A DNA stretch of 23,509 nucleotides from a virus: positions 1 to 23,509 of IMG/VR virus record IMGVR_UViG_3300021197_000433; one strand, written 5' to 3'. The notes beneath the pieces are model-generated. The model was not told the DNA's origin, made no database searches, and saw only the letters and a program-made list of their open reading frames with translations. A program made the translations under genes and the position numbers. This document shows positions 2,298-20,881 of this stretch, piece after piece. Within the stretch, counting starts at the first letter, position 1. Every line of letters begins with the position of its first letter.

Positions 2298-3095
2298 ATG
2301 GCAAAGACTAAAGTATCAGAATGGGATAGTACAGCAGCTAACAATACTGACATAAACTCAATAAACATAAATGAGGGCTGCCCACCCAGTACCATTAATA
2401 ATGCAATTCGTGAAACAATGGCACAAATCAAAAATTGGCAAGATGGTTCTAGTGGTGATAGTTGGACTAGCACTGGTACAATTACAGCAGCAGGTACATT
2501 AGCTGTTACTGGGGGTCTTACATTAGATGGTGCAACAGGAACATCAGGACAAGTTTTAGTTTCTAGTGGTTCATCAGCAACACCAACTTGGGGTAGTGGG
2601 TTTCCTACAGGTGGTATTATTTTATGGTCAGGTTCTACAGGTTCTATCCCTAGTGGTTGGGCATTGTGTAATGGCTCGTCAGGAACTCCTGATTTAAGAG
2701 ATAGATTTGTAGTAGGTGCAGGTAGCACTTATGCAGTAGATGCAACAGGTGGTAGTGCAGATGCTACTTTACCATCTCATACTCACACAGCAACTACTAC
2801 TGTAAGCACTAAAACAGGGTTAGATGGAACATTAACTTTAAAAAACAGAGGTGGTTCATCATATAACAGCTCATTAATGGCAGCTAGAAGTGGGTCAGTT
2901 ACAACAGTCAATCAAGGTAATTCTGTAGGATATGGTGAGGGATGGGAAGGTGAGGGTGGTTCTGGTTCATCTAAAGCAACCCTTACACTAAATCACAACC
3001 ATACAGCTACAACTTCTGTTTCTTCAGCAGGTTTAAGTGCAACTAACGCTAACCTACCTCCTTACTATGCTCTTGCATACATAATGAAACTATAA
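2298..3095 (+). CDS. Phage tail collar-domain fibre protein
   Basis: A 265-residue protein. Residues 1-60 hold a conserved fibre N-terminus (CPPSTINNAIRETMAQIKNW), a likely virion attachment region. From about residue 105 comes a phage tail collar domain: GGIILWSGSTGSIPSGWALC, then DLRDRFVVGAG, the LPSHTHTA histidine segment, a second LNHNHTA segment, and the usual terminal NLPPYYALAYIMKL. These are hallmark positions of the collar family (PF07484). It acts on the virion surface as a short fibre or host-recognition component. Confidence 0.85.
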   Translation: MAKTKVSEWDSTAANNTDINSININEGCPPSTINNAIRETMAQIKNWQDGSSGDSWTSTGTITAAGTLAVTGGLTLDGATGTSGQVLVSSGSSATPTWGSGFPTGGIILWSGSTGSIPSGWALCNGSSGTPDLRDRFVVGAGSTYAVDATGGSADATLPSHTHTATTTVSTKTGLDGTLTLKNRGGSSYNSSLMAARSGSVTTVNQGNSVGYGEGWEGEGGSGSSKATLTLNHNHTATTSVSSAGLSATNANLPPYYALAYIMKL

Positions 3096-3096
3096 T

Positions 3097-4533
3097 ATGA
3101 CAACAAAAAGATTACAATTTACAGACTGGCTACCAGACCAACCAGCAAATGCAGGTAGTTTAAATGATGCTAAAAATGTATTCCCTGTAGGTATTGGCTA
3201 TGGTGCTTTTCCTAGTGCAGAAGATTTTTCTAACGCTGCTAGTGAAGATATTAACAATATATTTGTAGCCAAGTTTGGTGCTAATGTAGAAGTGTTTGCA
3301 GGTGGTGCTACAAAGCTATTTAAATTAAATATTGCAACATTGGCATTAGCAGATGTATCTAAATCAGGTGGGTATGGTGGTAATGGCACATGGAAATTTG
3401 AACAATTTGGTAATGTAGTGTTGGCTTGTAATAATACGCAAAAGATACAAGCATGGACTATAGGTGTTTCTTCTGCATTTGCAGATGTAGCAGCCGCAGC
3501 TCCTATAGCTAAAGACATTGCTGTAGTTCGTGATTTTGTTTTTGCAGGAAATTTATTAGGTGGCACAAATCCAGATAAAGTGCAATGGTCAGATATTAAT
3601 GATGAAACAGATTGGACTTCTGGTGCTACAAGTCAAAGTGACTTTCAAATTATTCCTGATGGTGGTAATGTTCAAGCTATTACAGGTGGTGAATTTGGTG
3701 TTGTATTATTAGAAAAATCTGTGGTTAGATGTTCTTATGTTGGTAGTCCACTTTTTTGGCAATTTGATACTATCTCTAGTGGATTAGGTTGTTTAGAAGG
3801 TAATTCTGTTGCTAGATATGGAAATATAACTTTCTTTTTAGCAGATGATGGATTTTACTCTACAGATGGTCAAACAGTTACTAATATAGGATTAGAAAAA
3901 GTAGATAGATTTTTCTTTTCTAATGCTGATTTAACAAAAATAGATACAATTAGTGTTGCTATAGACCCTGTTAAAAATCTTGTCGTATGGAATTATGCAG
4001 ATGTAGATGGTAACAGAAAAATAATTATTTATAATTGGCAGTTAGGAAAATGGTCAAGAGCTGAAACTACATCAGATGTAGTAGGTACTATTGCTACTTT
4101 AGGAGAAACATTAGAAACTTTAGAGTCTAGTTTAGGCTATACAGATATAGATACTATGCCAGCATCACTAGATTCACGATTGTTTATAGGTGGTAAATTT
4201 TTATTTGCAGGTGCTAAAGGTACTAAAATAGTAGTATTTACAGGAACATCTATAACTCCACAACTTATTACAACAGATATAGAAATTGGCTATAATTCTG
4301 TAGCAACATTAGCAAGACCACAAATAGATAATGGCACAGCACAAGTAGCTGTAGCTAGTCGCAGAGAACTAGATGACACAATTACATTTAGTTCATTTGT
4401 TTCTGCTACATCAGAGGGTAGATGTAGTTTAAGGAGTGCAGGTAGGTATCATAGATTTAATGTGCAGCCTACAGGTAGCTGGACAACAGCTATGGCAGTA
4501 GATGTAGATGTAAAACCACAAGGCAATAGATAA
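3097..4533 (+). CDS. P22 gp10-like tail hub / DNA-stabilisation protein
   Basis: A 478-residue protein, close to the length of P22 gp10 (about 470). It shows repeated beta-propeller-like features: VRDFVFAGN, the S-D-x-x-D-x-x-D-W segment at VQWSDINDETDWTSG, GGEFGVVLLEKSVVRCSYVG, SSGLGCLEGNSVARYGNITF and a hydrophobic ...DDGFYSTDG strand. In P22-like podoviruses this protein sits between portal and needle and retains packaged DNA. The assignment rests on length, motif order and position before the ejection-protein genes, so it is family-level inference. Confidence 0.65.
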   Translation: MTTKRLQFTDWLPDQPANAGSLNDAKNVFPVGIGYGAFPSAEDFSNAASEDINNIFVAKFGANVEVFAGGATKLFKLNIATLALADVSKSGGYGGNGTWKFEQFGNVVLACNNTQKIQAWTIGVSSAFADVAAAAPIAKDIAVVRDFVFAGNLLGGTNPDKVQWSDINDETDWTSGATSQSDFQIIPDGGNVQAITGGEFGVVLLEKSVVRCSYVGSPLFWQFDTISSGLGCLEGNSVARYGNITFFLADDGFYSTDGQTVTNIGLEKVDRFFFSNADLTKIDTISVAIDPVKNLVVWNYADVDGNRKIIIYNWQLGKWSRAETTSDVVGTIATLGETLETLESSLGYTDIDTMPASLDSRLFIGGKFLFAGAKGTKIVVFTGTSITPQLITTDIEIGYNSVATLARPQIDNGTAQVAVASRRELDDTITFSSFVSATSEGRCSLRSAGRYHRFNVQPTGSWTTAMAVDVDVKPQGNR

Positions 4534-4847
4534 TGCCTAGAATGTATCGTACACTTCCCTATCAAGGTGGTGAACCTAGAGCTGTAGCAGAAGTAGTTAA
4601 TAATGCTATGAATGGCAAAACTAATAATAGTGGTACTTTTACTTTAGCAACATCAGTAACAGAAACCACAGTTAATAATGAAAGAGCAGGTTTTGATTCA
4701 GTTATTGTATTATCACCAAGAACTGCAAATGCAGCAGCAGAATCAGACCATACATATATTAAAACAAAAGCCAAAGGTAGCTTTATTATAGGGCATAGAA
4801 ATACATCTAATACTGATGTAACATATGATTATATCATTGTTGGATAA
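4533..4847 (+). CDS. Small virion-associated protein, unknown
   Basis: A 104-residue protein whose ATG shares a base with the upstream stop (TAATG), showing tight translational coupling to the gp10-like gene. It begins MPRMYRTLPYQGGEPRAVAE and ends in a Thr/Val-rich beta pattern (ITHRN-like segment, then YDYIIVG). Short all-beta proteins of this size occur next to tail genes of marine podoviruses and could be decoration or fibre-joint subunits. I do not recognise a named family. Confidence 0.7.
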   Translation: MPRMYRTLPYQGGEPRAVAEVVNNAMNGKTNNSGTFTLATSVTETTVNNERAGFDSVIVLSPRTANAAAESDHTYIKTKAKGSFIIGHRNTSNTDVTYDYIIVG

Positions 4848-12120: not shown

Positions 12121-12618
12121 CTACTTTTGTAGTTCAAAATGCTTAATAGTTTTAATATCTTTAAATAATACTTTAGTTACTTTATCTTTTCTTTTGTATC
12201 TTGTATGAACAAGATAAACACCTTTCCCTTTTTTGTAATTATTTTCTTTTAATTTTGATAAAGTTAAATTTAATAACTCAATTCTATTTACAACCATCCA
12301 AGTATCTTCTCTTTCAAAAACAATATAATCAGAATTGCCTCTTATCCAGCCATCTTTCCCATTTACATTTTTACCTTCTACCCAAACTGATTCCATTACA
12401 CCGACACTTGGGTCAGAGCTATGGTCTAACCTTTTAGTAGTTTTAACATCAAATTTGCTAACATTGCCTATCTCTTTTAAAAGCCCCATTACATCCCAAT
12501 GCTCATAAATGTCTTGGTTTTTGTTTGAATAAACAATATTTGTTATATGTTTTTCTGCAAATCTTTTTTCAGCAGATTTACCATAATCAAAACAATATTT
12601 AATTTTGTCTTTAAGCAT
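12121..12618 (-). CDS. Putative PD-(D/E)XK-fold nuclease-like protein
   Basis: Start taken at ATG 12618 (165 residues); a TTG six codons upstream is in frame but less likely. The stop of the upstream gene overlaps this start. The pattern GKSAEKRFAEKH, then IYEHWDVMG and SKFDVKTTKR gives E-x(n)-D-x(n)-DxK spacing like the catalytic core of restriction-endonuclease-fold nucleases, and NVNGKDGWIRGNSDYIVFER resembles a conserved segment of marine phage proteins of this type. Possible roles are resolvase, packaging-related or host-DNA degradation. Fold assignment is inference. Confidence 0.5.
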   Translation of the reverse strand: MLKDKIKYCFDYGKSAEKRFAEKHITNIVYSNKNQDIYEHWDVMGLLKEIGNVSKFDVKTTKRLDHSSDPSVGVMESVWVEGKNVNGKDGWIRGNSDYIVFEREDTWMVVNRIELLNLTLSKLKENNYKKGKGVYLVHTRYKRKDKVTKVLFKDIKTIKHFELQK

Positions 12619-13490: not shown

Positions 13491-13596
13491 TTTTCTCCTC
13501 CTCTCTAGCTACATTGCCTTTAAATATTCTGTTCCAATTTTCTTCTAATTCTTCATCAGTAATATCTTGCTTTCTTTTTCCACTACCTTTACCCAT
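13444..13596 (-). CDS. 50-residue charged protein, unknown
   Basis: Reads ATG 13596 to TAG 13444, preceded by a strong AAGGAGG eight bases before the start. The product begins MGKGSGKRKQDITDEELEEN and contains NWNRIFKG, a signature (MGKGxxRR..eE...NWdrIF) shared by short proteins of many phages, and ends in a charged tail. It overlaps the following gene by 47 bases, which is large but common in this operon. Function unknown. Confidence 0.6.
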   Translation of the reverse strand: MGKGSGKRKQDITDEELEENWNRIFKGNVAREEEKNGDKPNTKDSEEATG

Positions 13597-13870
13597 CACA
13601 ATCCCTCCTTACCTTACATACTTCATGTTTATCATAATATCTTACGCTGTTGTTTTTCATGTCTATGTTTTTAATTTGTGTATCTTTTGGTAGGTGTATA
13701 TATTCTTTGTTTAAACACTTGTATTCCATTTCAACTTTGTTTGGGTCTGGATAATGTAAGCTGACATACAAAACCGCCTCCGAGCAACTGTTAAAGTTTC
13801 CAACATATTCCCAATCTGTTAAAGGCTCTGGTGCTAAATTAATTACCATTACAAATGCAAACTCAATCAT
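13589..13870 (-). CDS. 93-residue protein with hydrophobic N-terminus, unknown
   Basis: The product begins MIEFAFVMVINLAPEPL, a short hydrophobic segment that might be a weak signal or membrane contact, and carries Cys29, Cys52, Cys85 and Cys91, so disulphides or metal binding are possible. Its ATG overlaps the stop of the MT-A70 gene (ATGA). The first ten codons are duplicated 619 bases upstream (see the 32-bp repeat): the upstream copy has kept the ribosome binding site that this gene probably once used. Family not recognised. GTTTAAAC lies at 13709-13716. Confidence 0.65.
   Translation of the reverse strand: MIEFAFVMVINLAPEPLTDWEYVGNFNSCSEAVLYVSLHYPDPNKVEMEYKCLNKEYIHLPKDTQIKNIDMKNNSVRYYDKHEVCKVRRDCDG
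13839..13870. repeat. 32-bp direct repeat, copy 1 (start of 93-residue gene)
   Basis: Identical to 14458-14489 over 32 bases; the copies differ immediately beyond both ends. On the minus strand the repeat begins with ATGATTGAGTTTGC. The two copies bracket the methyltransferase gene. Confidence 0.9.
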
Positions 13871-14427
13871 ACTTCATTCCCCCATATATCCCAACCTTCT
13901 GTTTCTTGTCTAGCAAACAATTCTACTCTTGGTAAATTGCCACATAGTTCTACAATTTTATCTCTAGCCACAGCTGGTTTTTTTGAGTGTTTGTCGATTG
14001 GTTCATAGATAATTTGATGAACACTTTTAGATACTCTTTTTGGCTTACCTTTGGTAGCTAATAAACATATTTCGTTATTTGCTCTTGTCCAATAACCTAA
14101 ACCCCAAAAGAAACTATCTTTGTTTTTGTTCTTTTTTACCCAACTAAAACCACAAGTCTTGTAGGTAAAACCCCATTCCTTTATTGTTTGTAACCCTTCT
14201 TGTAACAAAGGATAAGTAACCCATAAAAAAAGAACACAGTCATCATCTGCAATATCTTGCACTGGTAAATCATATATATCTTGAATACTCATACAGCTAT
14301 ATTCTTTTTGAGGGTCACGGATATTCAGGTCTTGTGAAGTCCCTTCTGTCCTTTTTTTAGACTGATATTTAAACTGCCAAGCTGGGTCAGCATAAATAAT
14401 GTTGTACTTTTTATTAGGTAGTTCCAT
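13867..14427 (-). CDS. MT-A70 family adenine-N6 DNA methyltransferase
   Basis: Start taken at ATG 14427 (186 residues), which overlaps the stop of a 20-codon leader ORF as TAATG and has GGGAG 9 bases upstream; ATG 14448 is in frame but lacks a ribosome binding site. NIIYADPAW (residues 9-17) is the D-P-P-W catalytic/SAM motif of MT-A70 with Ala at the third place. LFLWVTYPLLQEGLQTIKEW, KTCGFSWVKKNK, the NNEICLLATKGKPKR segment and KPAVARDKIVELCG, LPRVELFARQETEGWDIWGNE complete the family pattern (PF05063). It likely methylates adenine in phage DNA, for protection from restriction or for regulation. Confidence 0.9.
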   Translation of the reverse strand: MELPNKKYNIIYADPAWQFKYQSKKRTEGTSQDLNIRDPQKEYSCMSIQDIYDLPVQDIADDDCVLFLWVTYPLLQEGLQTIKEWGFTYKTCGFSWVKKNKNKDSFFWGLGYWTRANNEICLLATKGKPKRVSKSVHQIIYEPIDKHSKKPAVARDKIVELCGNLPRVELFARQETEGWDIWGNEV

Positions 14428-14489
14428 TATACAATTCTCCCAATCCATTTGCCATTTTTAATTACCATTACAAATGCAAACTCAATCAT
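14427..14489 (-). pseudogene. 20-codon leader ORF: duplicated 5' end of the 93-residue gene
   Basis: ATG 14489 has a very good ribosome binding site (AAGGAG, 7 bases upstream). The ORF encodes MIEFAFVMVIKNGKWIGRIV and stops in TAATG at the MT-A70 start. Its first ten residues are identical to those of the gene at 13589-13870. It is best read as the orphaned start of that gene, left behind when the methyltransferase gene came in, and now serving as a coupling leader. Confidence 0.6.
14458..14489. repeat. 32-bp direct repeat, copy 2 (leader ORF upstream of MT-A70)
   Basis: Second copy of the repeat at 13839-13870, 619 bases away and in the same orientation. This copy retains the ribosome binding site; copy 1 is preceded directly by the end of the methyltransferase gene. 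Confidence 0.9.
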
Positions 14490-14492
14490 GAT

Positions 14493-14657
14493 TTACTCCT
14501 TAAAGTTTCCTTTAGTTATAATCTTTCCTGTTAGTTCATGTGCAATATTAAAATCTTTCTTATTATAATTCATTATAAATTTGTAACCCTCATATATAAA
14601 TTGATGTTCTTTCCATATTTCTTTATTCTTTTTCAGTGCTTCCTTACCCTTTGCCAT
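14493..14657 (-). CDS. 54-residue basic protein, unknown
   Basis: Start taken at ATG 14657 (MAKGKEALKKNKEIWKEHQF) because GGAG lies 8 bases upstream; ATG 14678 is in frame without a good site. The protein is Lys-rich with aromatic residues (IYEGYKFIMNYNKKDFNIA) and no recognised motif. It overlaps the end of the preceding zinc-binding protein gene. Confidence 0.55.
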   Translation of the reverse strand: MAKGKEALKKNKEIWKEHQFIYEGYKFIMNYNKKDFNIAHELTGKIITKGNFKE

Positions 14658-14811
14658 CTTTCTCACTCCAATATACATTTAGTATTGTTTCACACTTTGG
14701 ACAACTATACTGACTCCATATTAAGTATTGACTATTATCTTCTTCATCATTATCCCAATCGTTTCCCCATATCATTTCTACATCTTTACATTTAGGACAA
14801 CTGATATTCAT
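14644..14811 (-). CDS. Small protein with two CPxC zinc knuckles
   Basis: Start taken at ATG 14811 (55 residues), overlapping the upstream stop by ATGA and preceded by AAGGAG. The protein has CPKC at residues 5-8 and a second CPKC near residue 37, about 30 residues apart, which is the spacing of a zinc ribbon. An acidic stretch (GNDWDNDEEDNSQY) lies between. Probably nucleic-acid or protein binding; no family recognised. Confidence 0.65.
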   Translation of the reverse strand: MNISCPKCKDVEMIWGNDWDNDEEDNSQYLIWSQYSCPKCETILNVYWSEKDGKG

Positions 14812-15599: not shown

Positions 15600-15902
15600 T
15601 TAAAACGGCACATCTTCTGACACTTGGTCAAAACCTTCTTTAGCTTGTGGAGCAGTTGTATTACTACTACCCTCATCTTTAAAGAACACTTTAGTATTAC
15701 CTAGTATAGCCCCTCTCGTTCCTGCTTCTCTTTCTTCTTGAGAAACAGATTGAGTAATCATACCATTGTTATCATATTGGTCTTTCTCATCCAAATTAAC
15801 AAATGCGGTTATGTTTAAATAAGTGCCTTTCTTACCATCAATAAGTTTAGCCTTATCAATCTTTGTTACATCAATACTTGCTGAAATTCCTACTGTTGCC
15901 AT
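15600..15902 (-). CDS. ssb: Single-stranded DNA-binding protein
   Basis: A 100-residue protein with an OB-fold-like beta pattern (VGISASIDVTKIDKAKLIDG, then GTYLNITAFVNLDEKDQYDN, and GAILGNTKVFFKDE), a flexible middle and the acidic C-terminal tip QVSEDVPF. That tip, ending in D-x-P-F, is the protein-interaction tail of bacterial and phage SSBs. It is shorter than E. coli SSB. It follows exonuclease and annealing-protein genes, with which it would act in recombination and replication. Start overlaps the exonuclease stop. Confidence 0.8.
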   Translation of the reverse strand: MATVGISASIDVTKIDKAKLIDGKKGTYLNITAFVNLDEKDQYDNNGMITQSVSQEEREAGTRGAILGNTKVFFKDEGSSNTTAPQAKEGFDQVSEDVPF

Positions 15903-16522
15903 TAGTTATTCTCCTTAATAAATTTAACTGAATCCATGACTTCTACTGCAAACTCATGAATATCTCTTTCTAGACGACCTATTAAATCATCATCTCTTTC
16001 TACTCTTTTGATAAAGAGCTTATAGTCATCAGGGAAGTCAGGGTGATAACAAACAAAGTCACACCACTTTCTACCCGTGCAAGCCATCTGCCACATCATT
16101 TGATGAATATATCGTTTCGGAATTACTGCGTTCTGCAATATCTCCGTATGTGTTGTTGCTTGGGGGCATTTTATTTCTATCAATCCCTCATCTCCTACCA
16201 TTCCATCAGGGCTAGCCCCTGACATCATGACTGTTGGGTGGTCTACAAAACCTTCCTCTTTAACATCTACATCTTTAAGTAGCCCTAGCTTTGCTATGTA
16301 AGCGTTTCTAGCCTCATCTTCATACTCAACCCCATGTCTCATAGCTTCGTTCATAAATATCTTAACGGGCTTACCTGTCAGTTGCTCGGTAATGAGTTGT
16401 GTTCTATACTTTCTTTTGTATTGGCTCTCACCATTCTTAACTTTAACAATCACATTATCTACATTACTAGCAGTGACCTTACCGACCCTTGCTTGAAACC
16501 ACTCTGGTGACCTTTGTTCCAT
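15902..16522 (-). CDS. YqaJ / lambda-type 5'-3' exonuclease
   Basis: A 206-residue protein of the YqaJ viral recombinase family (PF09588). It opens with RSPEWFQARVGKVTASNV, has MRHGVEYEDEARN near residue 65, and the catalytic SGASPDGMVG...LIEIKCP, where Asp106, Glu116 and Lys118 form the PD-(D/E)XK centre; Gln141 and Gln145 in HQMMWQM are also conserved. It resects double-stranded ends to give 3' single strands for the annealing protein encoded just upstream. The start follows SD-like GGA and the octamer GTTTAAAC, whose TAA ends the previous gene. Confidence 0.92.
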   Translation of the reverse strand: MEQRSPEWFQARVGKVTASNVDNVIVKVKNGESQYKRKYRTQLITEQLTGKPVKIFMNEAMRHGVEYEDEARNAYIAKLGLLKDVDVKEEGFVDHPTVMMSGASPDGMVGDEGLIEIKCPQATTHTEILQNAVIPKRYIHQMMWQMACTGRKWCDFVCYHPDFPDDYKLFIKRVERDDDLIGRLERDIHEFAVEVMDSVKFIKENN

Positions 16523-16524
16523 GT

Positions 16525-17022
16525 TTAAACATCCTTTTTAATTGTTTCTATAAATGGCATACATAACTTTCTGTCTGCCTCGTTTAAACCATTAAAGTAT
16601 TGTCTAGCCGTAGCTACACCTTGCTCTTTATATATGTTCTCTATGCGTTCCAGAACATCTCCTTCTGGCAAGTCCTCACCTTGATAGATATACAAACCAA
16701 TACCATGTAATGATATAGCTTTTGCTAAACATCTTTGCATAGCAGTATTGAGTTGCATAGCATTAGGATTTTTAATAGCTTGGTTCTTAAAATCTATTAC
16801 AGGTAATTGTGAAGTGACATTTTTACCAAATGCTTGAACTGTGCAGAACACCATCATACTGCCATCAGGTAATGTCATAGGGTCTGCATAACCCCATGTT
16901 GCTGACTCGTCATGTTGCAATAAAGTATCTACTGCCCATGCCCATGATAGATAAGTAAACTTACCTTTCTTCTCTGTATATTTGCTAACATCTATCTTTC
17001 TTAACTCTGCGTATTTACTCAT
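16525..17022 (-). CDS. Single-strand annealing protein, Sak3/DUF1071 type
   Basis: A 165-residue protein: DVSKYTEKKGKFTYLSWAWA near the N-terminus, then VDTLLQHDESATWGYADP and MVFCTVQAFGKNVTSQLPVI, and NAMQLNTAMQRCLAKAISLH followed by GIGLYIYQGEDLP. This is the DUF1071 pattern (PF06378), grouped with Rad52-like Sak3 phage recombinases. It would anneal complementary strands exposed by the exonuclease. Its ATG overlaps the preceding stop (ATGA), and its own stop lies inside GTTTAAAC. Confidence 0.85.
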   Translation of the reverse strand: MSKYAELRKIDVSKYTEKKGKFTYLSWAWAVDTLLQHDESATWGYADPMTLPDGSMMVFCTVQAFGKNVTSQLPVIDFKNQAIKNPNAMQLNTAMQRCLAKAISLHGIGLYIYQGEDLPEGDVLERIENIYKEQGVATARQYFNGLNEADRKLCMPFIETIKKDV

Positions 17023-20865: not shown

Positions 20866-20881
20866 AAAGGAGTGTTTAAAC

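Follow-up and report, generated by a model that had tools for sequence, protein, structure and literature searches.

An MT-A70 methyltransferase gene between perfect direct repeats in a phage of OM43 bacteria, and its probable import by recombination between related phages

Results

The window, that is, the whole 23.5-kb virus record analyzed here, aligned to Methylophilales phage Venkman EXVC282S (MT375522), a cultured isolate grown on OM43 strain H5P1. Two aligned blocks contained 16 mismatches in 10,899 nt and 133 in 12,124 nt. The window phage is a virus of OM43 (Methylophilales), the methanol-eating bacteria of the ocean, and close kin of this isolate. A clean single-gene swap between 99% identical stretches also distinguishes the two genomes, a gene for 171 amino acids at window positions 12122-12610 replacing Venkman gp38.

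The locus of interest lies on the minus strand and consists, in order, of a gene encoding 61 residues (14493-14678), a first copy of a 32-bp repeat, a 30-nt spacer, a methyltransferase gene (13867-14427), a second repeat copy that forms the start of a gene encoding 93 residues (13589-13870; Venkman gp33, hereafter G93), gp34, and gp35. G93 had no Pfam or PHROG match, and its function is unassigned.

The methyltransferase gene encodes a protein of 186 amino acids beginning MELPNKK, a start chosen by comparison with homologues; in the Venkman annotation it is gp32, with 193 amino acids from 14448. The protein is an MT-A70 family DNA methyltransferase (PF05063, PHROG 359) and matched the Pfam profile over its full length (positions 1-172 of 172, E = 7e-29). 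Motif IV reads DPAW, as it does in several more distant phage homologues. In family match and stand-alone state the gene resembles the orphan MT-A70/PHROG 359 methyltransferases of other phages, whereas its closest homologues among them have DPPW. Protection from restriction is the role usually inferred for stand-alone phage methyltransferases, and, judged from family membership, the present enzyme would presumably methylate adenine in phage DNA and so protect it against host restriction.

The direct repeat ATGATTGAGTTTGCATTTGTAATGGTAATTAA occurs at 13839-13870 and 14458-14489, both copies on the minus strand and identical at 32 of 32 positions; when the 10 nt upstream were added, identity was 38/42. 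Among the other gene-start regions of Venkman, no pair shares a match longer than 19 nt, so an exact repeat of 32 nt is far beyond chance. The original prediction, made from the letters of the window, had placed perfect 32-bp repeats on either side of an MT-A70 gene, and both repeats lie exactly where it put them, in Venkman as well as in the window. It had also placed the methyltransferase exactly between the copies. The gene is indeed bracketed by them, but it does not begin directly after the upstream one, since the spacer AAATGGCAAATGGATTGGGAGAATTGTATA (14428-14457) intervenes as the left junction of the insert.

The right copy (13839-13870) is the start of the present G93, and the methyltransferase TGA overlaps it as ATGA (13870-13867). 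The left copy (14458-14489) retains GGAG-TAAATC-ATG, preceded by a ribosome-binding region GGAGTAAATC (14490-14499) identical to that of relatives lacking the methyltransferase. As read from the sequence, it opens a 20-codon leader ORF, MIEFAFVMVIKNGKWIGRIV (14427-14489), whose TAA overlaps the methyltransferase ATG as TAATG (14429-14425). These details of the leader and of both overlaps had been described correctly, and coupling is kept on both sides of the insert. The spacer itself contains GGGAG nine bases 5′ of the methyltransferase ATG, a candidate ribosome site in view of which translation of the methyltransferase may or may not depend on the leader. A slightly degenerate form of the spacer matched no viral contig, and no source for the spacer was present among the fetched loci.

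To place the insert in a comparative setting, the G93 protein was used as a query and retrieved 65 relatives in viral contigs. Far from all of them having the methyltransferase and the repeat, the methyltransferase was absent from all 65. An empty site, as had been predicted, is present in 30 IMG/VR contigs from this phage group, in which the 61-residue gene lies directly upstream of G93 with the same spacing and order. These sites read RBS-ATGATTGAG and then G93 directly, with the start geometry TAA-ATC-ATG or its equivalent, and relatives without the methyltransferase have one repeat copy at the junction. Wherever the syntenic contigs were long enough, neighboring genes were retained on both flanks. 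The left repeat copy of the window is identical to the G93 start of many of these relatives (e.g. L017, L019, and L023). In trees built from 890 nt upstream and 710 nt downstream, the window and Venkman nested among the empty-site phages with moderate supports. Their sisters differed between the two sides, being L017 and L019-22 on the left flank (support 0.95) and L003-L008 on the right (support 0.87). Because 65 contigs with G93 are without the gene and both flanks nest among empty-site phages, the methyltransferase was gained on the branch leading to Venkman and the window.

The affinities of the DNA around the insert are likewise side-specific. Immediately upstream of the left repeat, 200 nt of the window show 99% identity to L017, with a further switch of affinity about 270 nt upstream. 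On the other side, nt ∼45-113 of G93 are unlike every sampled allele. Over nt 33-132 the window differs from its nearest allele at 20 of 100 positions, and nearly all other lineages have a neighbor allele within 5 differences over the same stretch. Seventeen sites set the window apart from every one of 12 close alleles, and 16 of them fall at nt 45-110. From about nt 118 the window matches L003/L007, to which nt 133-182 are identical and nt 133-282 show 3 differences in 150 (98% identity). The 5′ tract of G93, from nt 1 to about nt 113 (13758-13870, minus strand), would thus be donor DNA that accompanied the methyltransferase, and on this pattern of differences donor sequence appears to run past the repeat and into G93 as far as about nt 113.

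A search with the methyltransferase yielded 33 viral loci. None of those examined had a G93 start near the methyltransferase; the homologues had varied flanks and no G93-start repeat, so the element did not recur at these sites with a target duplication. Elsewhere among phages (L068, L076, and L078), methyltransferases related to this one end in GGGGNAATGAARTATGA, whose ATGA is shared with the gene that follows, an unrelated one. The methyltransferase gene therefore supplies, at its 3′ end, both a ribosome site and a start overlap, and the right-hand coupling needs no special mechanism. Marine viral homologues were about 84% identical to the window protein, with one partial sequence at 90%. 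The best matches in cellular genomes were mostly from gut Clostridia at 48-62% identity, far below the marine viral homologues, and such a source was rejected as the immediate donor.

Two further properties of the repeat were considered and discounted. A pattern scan found it in 52 viral contigs, each with a single copy at the G93 start, which does not support a mobile linker. Nor was there evidence for special conservation at the DNA level, synonymous conservation in codons 1-12 being not significantly higher than in the remaining codons (permutation p = 0.10).

A second methyltransferase gene lies at the same G93 junction in contig L013. This gene (2937-3998) encodes an unrelated C5-cytosine methyltransferase (PF00145) and follows a Ref/HNH-like gene that is adjacent to G93 in L025, L027, L028, L031, and L051. 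The sequence TGGAGGAATAAT flanks it on both sides. The L013 G93 matches one allele group (L030 etc.) exactly at nt 1-32 and L009 exactly at nt 62-150, with private sites confined to the first 61 nt. This second methyltransferase also appears, then, to have brought a G93 5′ end with it.

More broadly, nine clusters of unrelated genes occupy the position upstream of G93, and one downstream neighbor is kept in 42 loci; this difference between the two sides marks the start of G93 as a module boundary. A general rule of start-region repeats around gene-sized insertions was not upheld. An overlap screen suggested several cases, most of which, when compared inside the carriers, were ordinary ribosome-site similarity. 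Only L013 and L036 ranked within the top 0.5% when set against Venkman gene-start pairs, and no case approached that of the window. In L036 a gene for 100 residues (4525-4827) is absent from L033, and its start region AAAGGAGA...GTGAGTGATTT resembles that of the next gene, AAAGGAGA...ATGAGTGATTT, a less convincing example of an extra gene bracketed by similar gene starts.

Discussion

The methyltransferase was probably gained by recombination between two related phages, with a donor segment carrying both the methyltransferase and the start of the donor's G93. The recipient would have had an empty site, its 61-residue gene being followed directly by G93, and the donor, an unsampled phage, would have had the methyltransferase immediately before its own G93, with the ATGA overlap. 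About 0.7 kb of donor DNA would have entered, comprising the 30-nt spacer, the methyltransferase gene, and the first ∼113 nt of the donor G93. The right joint would have been made by homologous exchange inside G93, and the left joint where the recipient's conserved 32-nt start of G93 ends, through very short homology or illegitimately. The two repeat copies would then be the recipient start and the donor start, and not necessarily a duplicated target. The recipient's original G93 start would have become the beginning of the 20-codon leader before the methyltransferase, and the donor's start would serve the working G93.

The phage encodes candidate enzymes for such an event. The Sak single-strand annealing protein (gp24; 16525-17022, minus strand; PF06378, E = 3e-37; phrog_659) is a candidate recombinase, and a YqaJ-type exonuclease (gp25; 15902-16522, minus strand; PF09588, E = 1.6e-24; phrog_149) is its probable partner. 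Sak belongs to the Rad52-like class of phage recombinases, which are reported to exchange sequences that are short and diverged (PMC3945230). We infer that the phage's own Sak and YqaJ did the joining, in the order of events proposed above. Homology suited to the right joint is present within G93. At the left joint only a few shared A residues are visible. No donor with the methyltransferase followed by G93 was found in the viral contigs, drawn from collections that may omit records very near the window.

The original prediction envisaged a seamless insertion into the start codon region of G93. The gain of the methyltransferase agrees with that proposal, but a simple copying of the target as the origin of the 32 bp is not supported, given foreign G93 sequence to about nt 113, and seamless insertion is probably not how the arrangement arose. 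This explanation would have methyltransferase DNA alone entering the G93 start through a staggered break, a template switch, or end joining, copying 32 nt as it did so, with the foreign tract left by a later, unrelated exchange. The duplication is exact and the empty site perfect, as such a route would leave them, and the 4-nt ATGA microhomology between the methyltransferase end and the G93 start could have made the right joint. The foreign tract could indeed be a separate later event, recombination being frequent in these phages. The explanation nevertheless requires a second, independent exchange that happens to adjoin the repeat, and the 5′ end of G93 is likewise switched beside the insert in L013. 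No terminal inverted repeats were found among the window inverted repeats of at least 18 nt, or by eye at the insert ends, and the 587-nt insert holds the methyltransferase only, with no transposase or integrase gene; these findings, with the lack of other bracketed copies among the viral loci examined, also led us to reject a transposon. On these grounds target duplication is unlikely.

It is distinctly improbable that the leader is what remains of a complete G93 copy, either duplicated or one of two copies joined around the methyltransferase and later trimmed to 20 codons. The leader and methyltransferase start do align to G93 codons of L029/L031/L050 over about 23 nt, with a score reached by 34 of 2000 random 50-mers (1.7%) and 25 of 2000 shuffles, but the alignment is weak, contains gaps of 3 and 5 nt, and was picked after the fact.

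Ancestral presence of the methyltransferase and repeats, with clean deletion in every relative, is highly improbable. Recombination between the repeats would yield exactly the empty site observed, yet the gene is lacking in 30 of 30 syntenic relatives, within which the window nests on both flanks, and the upstream copy is undecayed though it no longer encodes G93. Finally, the repeat is real in the record and direct repeats often cause assembly errors, but the cultured isolate Venkman has the identical structure, with differences at 2 of the 587 insert positions and many elsewhere, so the structure is real and mis-assembly very unlikely, to the point of being negligible.

Import by recombination with a related phage has a close precedent in gene 68 of mycobacteriophage Island3, which is present in one phage, absent from a close relative, and bracketed by a ∼50-bp copy of a neighbor-gene edge, an arrangement explained by recombination at short gene edges (Pope et al. 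2011, PMC3029335). The two cases are of the same kind, a single gene between copies of its neighbor's edge. They differ in that the gene edge repeated in Island3 is a 3′ end, that of the upstream gene, and the one repeated in the window a 5′ end, that of the downstream gene. The direction of change is undecidable for Island3, whereas here 30 empty sites, together with the foreign tract, indicate that the gene was gained along with donor sequence. The window case is thus of the Island3 kind, but better resolved and with a parallel in L013.

Phage mosaicism arising at conserved boundary sequences, or through the relaxed recombination of Rad52-like enzymes (PMC3945230), likewise involves exchange at a short conserved gene edge, and the window phage encodes both Sak and YqaJ; clear homology is found here on one side only, and the enzyme assignment is a predicted one. 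Like a moron (PMC3029335), the insert is an extra gene between genes that are contiguous in relatives, but morons carry their own promoter and terminator, neither of which is evident for the methyltransferase gene, which instead overlaps its neighbors in translational coupling. The MPME1/2 elements (PMC3029335) resemble it as small inserts in one of several near-identical phages, but are fixed elements of 439 bp with inverted repeats, found at several sites, and the window insert has neither feature. The window case is a well-resolved example of ordinary phage gene shuffling and does not represent a novel type of mobile element.

How a single gene can be gained while tightly packed operons with coupled translation stay intact is usually argued from junctions that are old and eroded. 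The present event looks recent, its empty site has been sampled many times, and insert and donor tract can be distinguished. It is plausible that the captured gene can be deleted cleanly by recombination between the repeats. With the cultured pair Venkman/H5P1, both the rate of such clean loss and the role of the Sak-type recombinase are directly measurable.

A broader proposal, doubtful at present and offered tentatively, is that the G93 start acts as a docking site for repeated capture of single genes by annealing-driven recombination of the G93 5′ end, with easy loss of the captured gene through the repeat that remains. If so, anti-restriction genes, including two unrelated DNA methyltransferases, would come and go cleanly at this position.

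Two other features of the window were recorded. A 109-nt direct repeat, 75% identical between copies, lies at 1700-2051 inside the gene for a 238-residue protein (1578-2294) built with repeated ...ASISGTATLTADGLRIRFG... units. A palindromic octamer, GTTTAAAC, is present in 26 copies in the window against 0.9 expected, and in 34 copies in Venkman against 1.4 expected; most lie in the part with small genes (e.g. window positions 20874, 21530, 21743, 22921, 23157, and 23378), often between the ribosome site and the ATG (GGAGTGTTTAAACATG). The octamer is frequent also in close relatives and rare in others. It may serve as an operator or mark the starts of early genes.
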